From the NCBI GenBank assembly GCA_035710745.1, contig DASTCX010000025.1:1-64000 (forward strand): 64,000 nt of DNA. Reading direction: 5' to 3'. Of this stretch, positions 25,260 through 26,768 are shown piece after piece (position 1 is the first letter of the stretch; every line of letters starts with the position of its first letter). The stretch is from Candidatus Eremiobacteraceae bacterium (lineage in GTDB: Bacteria; Vulcanimicrobiota; Vulcanimicrobiia; Eremiobacterales; Eremiobacteraceae). A program made the translations under genes and the position numbers. Below the pieces are notes generated by a model, which saw only the letters and a program-made list of their open reading frames with translations, did not search any database and was not told where the DNA came from.

Positions 25260-26768
25260 TCAACGCTTCCGGCGCGACGCGAAAAGCAAGATCCCCACGA
25301 ACACGGTTGCTCCGATTGCGAACGCTAGTCCTTTGGCGTCGACGTGAGCGTCGTCATCTTCGTCGAGCCGAGGCGGCGTCGCCGGGTCGTCTAGAAATTC
25401 CATGATGTGCTCGACGCTCGGGCCGTTCGCGCGCCGCGACGCCGCCGCGAGCTGGATCTGGCATCCCGGGTTCGCGGTGATCAGACGCTCCGCTCCGACC
25501 GCTTTCGCCGCCGCGATCATCCGGTCTGCGAGCGCGTCGGCCATCGCCGGGTGCGTTAGGTTGTAGACTCCCGCACTGCCGCAGCAGCGGTCGGCTCCCT
25601 CGAGCTCGACGCGCTCGTATCCGGGCACGGCGTCGATCGCGCGCCTGGGTTGGTCGACGACGCGTTGCGCCTGAGCGAGATGGCAAGGATCCTGGTAAGC
25701 GACGCGCGTTGTATGATCTTGTAGCGGTCGAGCTGATATGTGGTCATGTAGCGGTCGAGCTTTAGCTCGACCGGAGACGGCCTCACCTGAACGGCCGCGG
25801 CGGTCGACGTGAACGTCGACCGCTACATCGGTCAGCCCGGTCGCGTCGACGAGCTCTGTCGCATCGCGGACGCGCGACGCGAAATTCACGGCGCGATCGT
25901 GCCACTGTGGGTCACTCTCGAGGAGGTGACCGTACTCTTTCATCGCGGCGCCGCAGCCGGCGGCGTTGACCGCTATATGATCGGCTCCCGATCGCTCGAA
26001 AGCCGCGATCGTCGCGCGCGCCATCTCCCGCGCTCGATCCTTGAGGCCGGCGTGAAGATGGAGCGCGCCGCAGCAGGCCTGACCCTCGGGCACTTCCACA
26101 TCCCAGCCGCTGTGCGCAAGGACGCGAACCGTCGATCGATCGATGTCGCCGAACATCGCGCCCATGACGCAGCCTGCGAAGAGCGCGACGCTGCCGCGCG
26201 ACGTCGTGCCGACCGCGTGATACGTCTGTCCGTTCGCGACGAACGGCGCGCCGCGCGGCGACGGGAGCAGCGCATCGAGACGTTCGAGACCGAGTGCGCG
26301 AAGCGCGCCGCTCGCTCGAAGGAGCCGGCGGATTCCAAGGCGCTGCGCGAGCCCGGCCGCGTAGGCCGCGAAGCGCAAGATCCGTCCGTCGGCGAAAAGC
26401 GCCTCGTAGACCGCCTGCAAAAGCGGCGCCAGGAGTGCGTTGTCGGGGCGCTTGGCGATCTGCGCCCTCGCGTCTTCGAGCAGCGCTCCGTAACGCACGC
26501 CGGATGGACACGCCGGCTCGCAGCTGCGGCAGCCGAGACATTCGCTCATCTGGGCGGTGAAGGTCGGATCGTCGAGCGGCAGCTTCCCTTCGAGAACGCC
26601 GGCGATGAGCCCGATCCGGCCGCGCGGTGAGGACCGCTCGTCGAGCGTCAGCCTGTACGTCGGACAGACGGGCAGACAGAACCCGCACTTGATGCATGTG
26701 TTGACGATCGCGTCCGAAGGGACGTCGGGCGCGACGAACCCGGGATCACCCATCGGTGTTTGGCCCAT
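25260..26768 (-). CDS. glcF: Glycolate oxidase iron-sulfur subunit, GlcF
   Basis: This 502-residue subunit passes electrons from glycolate oxidation to the respiratory chain. Two 4Fe-4S motifs stand at the N-terminus (NTCIKCGFCLPVCPTYRL and SECLGCRSCEPACPSGVRYG). Two CCG domains follow (GCVMGAMFGDIDRSTVRVLA..QACCGALH, and DPCHLAQAQ..DRCCGSAGVYNL). A cluster of REP repeats (25721-25826) lies in frame within the second CCG region, adding about 43 residues rich in Arg just before VAYQDPCHL. The C-terminus has an extra membrane segment (AFAIGATVFVGILLFASRRK). The start is ATG 26768, overlapping the end of glcE. Confidence 0.9.
   Translation of the reverse strand: MGQTPMGDPGFVAPDVPSDAIVNTCIKCGFCLPVCPTYRLTLDERSSPRGRIGLIAGVLEGKLPLDDPTFTAQMSECLGCRSCEPACPSGVRYGALLEDARAQIAKRPDNALLAPLLQAVYEALFADGRILRFAAYAAGLAQRLGIRRLLRASGALRALGLERLDALLPSPRGAPFVANGQTYHAVGTTSRGSVALFAGCVMGAMFGDIDRSTVRVLAHSGWDVEVPEGQACCGALHLHAGLKDRAREMARATIAAFERSGADHIAVNAAGCGAAMKEYGHLLESDPQWHDRAVNFASRVRDATELVDATGLTDVAVDVHVDRRGRSGEAVSGRAKARPLHDHISARPLQDHTTRVAYQDPCHLAQAQRVVDQPRRAIDAVPGYERVELEGADRCCGSAGVYNLTHPAMADALADRMIAAAKAVGAERLITANPGCQIQLAAASRRANGPSVEHIMEFLDDPATPPRLDEDDDAHVDAKGLAFAIGATVFVGILLFASRRKR
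25721..25826. repeat. Class I REP cluster inside glcF
   Basis: Three class I units are visible: a truncated copy at 25721-25734, a copy at 25748-25774 (GTAGCGGTCGAGCTTTAGCT then CGACCGG) and a full inverted copy at 25793-25826. The cluster lies entirely within the glcF reading frame and does not break it. All three are near-identical to the REPs beside the RAYT gene. Confidence 0.92.

Follow-up and report, generated by a model that had tools for sequence, protein, structure and literature searches.

REP and REPIN-RAYT systems in Pseudomonas and E. coli consist of many short palindromes, mostly intergenic, that flank a REP-associated Y1 transposase. These REPs are described as extragenic, with coding copies exceptional. 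GTAG and CGTC REPs have also been reported inside ORFs of known proteins in many species, including tRNA synthetases, and the GTAG-headed hairpin units occur singly, as dimers or in clusters, in families associated with RAYT genes (PMC3733652). Repeat clusters in Thauera and R. conorii encode 43-82 aa, and such insertions may be neutral, lying in flexible linkers or loops (PMC3733652). Rickettsia palindromic elements (RPE-1, RPE-4 and RPE-6) are found in frame in functional protein-coding genes; of these, RPE-4 and RPE-6 are CGTC-type repeats, a type for which no transposase association was reported (cited in PMC3733652). That readable palindromes can supply new protein segments, as the initial annotation of the present locus proposed, is therefore already published, both for the Rickettsia elements and for GTAG and CGTC REPs (PMC3733652). 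Searching the literature on Eremiobacterota for REPs or RAYTs returned nothing relevant, and no paper on the present case was found.

The window analysed here is a 64,000-nt stretch of a Candidatus Eremiobacteraceae bacterium genome (contig DASTCX010000025.1, positions 1 to 64,000). It contains a REP cluster within a glcF-like gene, and the features that bear on its origin are the following.

17363 to 17686, plus strand: RAYT (Y1_Tnp transposase, PF01797, E=4.8e-10)
25260 to 26753, minus strand: glcF-like gene for the iron-sulfur subunit of glycolate oxidase; its 497-aa product, counted from the ATG at 26753, carries two CCG domains as well as 4Fe-4S motifs
25710 to 25829, minus strand: coding segment DVAVDVHVDRRGRSGEAVSGRAKARPLHDHISARPLQDHT, 40 codons, missing from homologues, net gain of 33 residues
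25721 to 25826, no strand assigned: REP cluster within glcF, made of a half unit, a full unit and an inverted full unit, seen in the sequence and as repeats D6, I1 and I15
25721 to 25734, plus strand: half REP unit GTAGCGGTCGAGCT, GTAG head and left arm only, 27 bp to the next unit head
25748 to 25773, plus strand: full REP unit GTAG+CGGTCGAGCTTTAGCTCGACCG, giving GRAKARPL in the glcF frame
25801 to 25826, minus strand: variant-type full REP unit, GTAGCGGTCGACGTTCACGTCGACCG, giving VAVDVHVD in the glcF frame

The host gene is named glcF-like because NF008434 is its best match and because it follows glcD- and glcE-like ORFs. In a profile search, the match to NF008434 (E=4.7e-73, 246.5 bits) falls under the curated cut-off of 333, so the family score itself is not reached, and Pfam CCG is matched in two stretches (E=3.3e-34). 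The order on the minus strand is a glcD-like and a glcE-like ORF, then glcF, then a cpdA-like phosphodiesterase ORF, where the names glcD, glcE and cpdA are given by resemblance, without a family search. The window belongs to an Eremiobacterota MAG; among named relatives, 'Candidatus Eremiobacteria bacterium isolate CRAIB_MAG119' is the nearest as judged from GlcF.

The repeats display the properties by which GTAG REPs are recognized. Full units begin with a GTAG head that stays unpaired and continue as a short, imperfect palindrome, within the 20-40 bp typical of the superfamily, and the consensus GTAG+CGGTCGAGCTTTAGCTCGACCG is found in most of the at least 82 occurrences listed, with variants that alter both arms in pairs. 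Copy number is high: the core TGTAGCGGTCGA has 192 exact copies in the 2.97 Mb genome, against none for the reversed (uncomplemented) control pattern, and with as many as 2 mismatches allowed the window alone gives 38 matches where 8.7 are expected. Exact copies within glcF lie at 25720 (+), 25747 (+) and 25816 (-). Among 113 clusters of this genome, the flanking genes, as judged by codon score, are convergent in 49, codirectional in 56 and divergent in 8, in line with the convergent or unidirectional setting usual for GTAG REPs. Furthermore, REPs flank the RAYT on both sides (17180 and 17235 upstream; 17800 and 17861, both with the exact core, downstream), as in the Pseudomonas and E. coli systems with their numerous short palindromes, and the window RAYT is, from this arrangement, the likely mobiliser of the family. 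A second PF01797 gene lies on contig C31. The copy numbers and unit anatomy uphold the identification of REPs within glcF in the initial annotation. Its count of three units is correct as to the presence of a cluster and has to be amended as to its content, which is two full units in opposite orientations and one half unit.

Beyond this genome, 138 exact core copies occur in the sister species G001 (JANWLL010000045.1), a MAG and the only same-genus genome compared, and no more than 7 in each of 59 further relatives except one. The exception, G004, belongs to the same family and another genus; its genome, 97% complete, has 45 exact copies and gave no match to the window RAYT at E<=0.001.

Within GlcF, the REP cluster coincides with an extra protein segment. 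The distance from CGAAMKEYG to ADRCCGSAG is 78-95 residues in 44 homologues (87 in 29 of these; the set includes a few duplicates between collections), compared with 120 residues in GlcF here and 147 in the sister, and nine further homologues agree with the short linker. The counterpart of the insert in homologues is a short linker such as AIGISPELGRLD, immediately ahead of the VAYQDPCHL stretch in the second CCG domain, which is where the insertion had been placed from the outset. The proposed alignment with homologues thus detected no equally long segment in any of the 44, which lack REPs at this site. The added length was first put at about 43 residues; an extra segment is indeed present, and the net gain is 33 (120 against a modal 87), with about 40 residues that look new because some 6-7 old linker residues were replaced. 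The description of the insert as Arg-rich was overstated, as its composition is mixed (6 R, 5 D, 5 A, 5 V and 4 H among 40 residues). Its frame, as originally claimed, stays open across the whole cluster, and it is the only one of the six frames that does so. The tryptic peptides expected from the insert are DATELVDATGLTDVAVDVHVDR, SGEAVSGR and ARPLHDHISARPLQDHTTR.

A whole REP unit thus lies in frame in the ORF of a known protein and is missing from its homologues, as in the intragenic GTAG REPs of PMC3733652, with which this cluster also shares the GTAG hairpin units and the RAYT association. The glcF cluster is a real instance of this published phenomenon in a new phylum. It differs from the earlier cases in its host phylum, Eremiobacterota, in its REP sequence and in its targets, glcF, gltX and purD, and goes beyond them in that conservation between two species and an in-frame change of length are documented. 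The likeness to the Rickettsia elements, palindromic repeats in frame within functional genes, is one of kind only, and RPE-1 is longer than the REPs here. Compared with the extragenic REPs of Pseudomonas and E. coli, those in glcF are coding.

A mobile-type repeat in the middle of a gene might mean that glcF is broken, as a pseudogene, a split gene or an assembly artefact, the more so since several contig ends in this genome coincide with REPs. However, the sister MAG has the same cluster in its glcF, within flanking coding DNA that is 87% identical, which rules out the sequencing or assembly error that the initial annotation had allowed for. The conserved Cys motifs are intact on both sides of the insert, and comparison of the flanking parts of the gene with the sister gives dN 0.048, dS 0.51 and dN/dS of about 0.09 (0.085 upstream of the insert, 0.12 downstream). 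Judged from these substitutions, glcF is under purifying selection outside the insert. A pseudogene or frameshift is rejected on the dN/dS values and the intact motifs, and damage to glcF in any form is extremely unlikely. The contig ends in question lie at C1:129-238, C2:7303-7314 of 7329, C3:209942 of 209978, C4:311618 of 311762 and C8:15 of this genome (G000); contigs that end at REP clusters suggest that REPs probably break the assembly.

The reading that best fits these data, to which we assign a probability of about 0.8, is that a GTAG REP cluster, of a family probably dispersed by the RAYT of this window, entered glcF in the ancestor of the genus and now encodes a loop between domains that is predicted to be disordered and tolerated. 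The RAYT, or its ancestor, would have placed the cluster where the two CCG domains join, in a single event that preceded the separation of the two species. Most such insertions would break the gene; here the cluster would have entered in the one orientation and frame without stops, and glcF would have survived because the length and frame of the insert fitted. Translation of the REP DNA would then yield a disordered loop between the domains, near-neutral for the enzyme and tolerated between the CCG domains, whose length would later have changed in whole codons through the 27-bp and 66-bp repeats seen in the sister. In that species the cluster is 81 nt (27 residues) longer, in frame, with unit heads spaced 27 bp and 66 bp, and the half unit is repeated in three copies at 27-bp spacing.

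An AlphaFold2 model built from 22 aligned sequences has pLDDT <50 over residues 308-345, whereas most of both CCG domains reaches about 90 or more, and the best PDB fold matches of the model are LutA, EtfD and the heterodisulfide reductase subunit HdrB, as expected of CCG proteins. On this model, the insert is most likely a disordered loop that protrudes between the domains. The predicted disorder and the variable length of the insert favor tolerance over function, and a tolerated selfish insertion is the most likely nature of the segment. Against near-neutrality, the linker is of nearly constant length in other homologues, and the site is therefore not obviously permissive.

The added peptide might instead have been co-opted, for instance into a GlcF loop that binds a partner or has a regulatory role, given that both species have kept the insert and that GltX and PurD contain a peptide similar to the one in GlcF. 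Yet the two sister species differ in its length by 27 residues, it is predicted to be disordered, and the residues between the REPs evolve faster than the remaining protein: the non-REP parts of the insert have 5 changes at 30 first and second codon positions, compared with 44 at 902 in the flanks (p=0.017). Moreover, GlcF, GltX and PurD have no obvious common feature, and the peptide they share is partly due to the small number of open REP frames. Co-option is accordingly very unlikely.

The recurrence of this peptide emerged from a survey by codon score of 122 REP-like clusters in this genome, where the first 100 of the 192 REP sites were covered, and 57 in the sister. Most of the sites surveyed were convergent or codirectional, and among them glcF, gltX and purD were the only in-frame cases left. 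In gltX (L069 710-2272 on G000:C4; L121 in the sister), a REP lies in frame between two CxC pairs in both species and is read as AVDPGRAKARPLQD. In purD (L225 / L197 on G000:C22; L196 / L151 in the sister), both species again have an in-frame REP, and the segment is VVSGRAEARPLQDTDVGTRALN here; the sister has VAAVDVEARPLQVG, which differs in length by 10 residues and keeps the frame. The REP segments of gltX and purD are missing in relatives from other genera, and the corresponding loops of both proteins vary in length regardless. Two further sites that are open in the top-scoring frame, L067:2344 and L155:1185, were set aside because each is a lone core match that forms no palindrome. The candidates in L219-L232 were discarded as open frames flanked, on one side or both, by poor coding scores.

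Full units of the common type in all three genes read GRA(K/E)ARPL here, on the same strand and in the same frame, with the peptide type GRA[K/E]ARPLQD. A GRAKARPLQD-type frame may fit proteins repeatedly, with the copies kept by selection on the palindrome, as RNA or DNA, and not on the peptide; if so, a REP would be maintained within core metabolic genes. We regard this as improbable. A single isolated unit has 3 of its 6 frames open, and the recurrence of the same frame in all three insertions is therefore no more than suggestive.

The REP arms themselves also count against near-neutrality. Between the two species, the arms in glcF differ at 2 of 73 positions and the flanks at 176 of 1353 (13%; p=0.006), a post hoc comparison in that the arms were picked after the alignment had been inspected, and one based on few sites. 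This is less change than pure DNA neutrality would give. Conservation at third codon positions over the whole 40-codon insert showed no effect (10/40 against 132/451, p=0.72). The palindrome could be kept as nucleic acid, either as an mRNA hairpin that slows ribosomes or protects the message, or as a DNA site maintained through RAYT or gene conversion, with the peptide as a by-product. Besides the nearly unchanged arms in glcF, about 40 nt around the gltX REP are identical between species, and the RNA of the glcF insert forms strong hairpins more stable than shuffled sequences (z=-3.7). No T-run suggestive of termination is present in the sequence at these hairpins. At intergenic sites, swaps of unit type alter both arms and preserve the palindrome, which fits conversion. 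However, the longer RNA segment of the sister folds less distinctly (z=-2.2) and differently, and the left arm of the purD REP is GGTCGAGCTGAAGCTC in one species and GGTCGACGTTGAAGCTC in the other, so the palindrome is not strictly kept. With the few sites of a post hoc test added to these points, maintenance as nucleic acid is a tentative and rather unlikely alternative to a tolerated insertion. The near-identity of the arms could reflect selection on the hairpin, conversion from other copies or chance.

The swapped intergenic sites are the orthologous pairs L155 / L065 and L170 / window 44910, where both arms have changed jointly; this pattern suggests conversion between REP copies.

As a tolerated insertion, the glcF cluster extends translated REPs, with translation predicted from the open frame, to Eremiobacterota. 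With two species to compare, the insert, its whole-codon growth and the selection acting on its host gene are all readable at this locus, which also provides a natural test of tolerance between domains of an iron-sulfur CCG protein. REP DNA of this kind may also be mistaken by annotators for lineage-specific 'domains'.

The C-terminus of GlcF (window 25260-25340) has a predicted transmembrane-type helix and a basic tail, AFAIGATVFVGILLFASRRKR. A comparable tail is missing from the other homologues examined and is found in the GlcF of the sister and of G005, where, as here, it is possibly a membrane tether.
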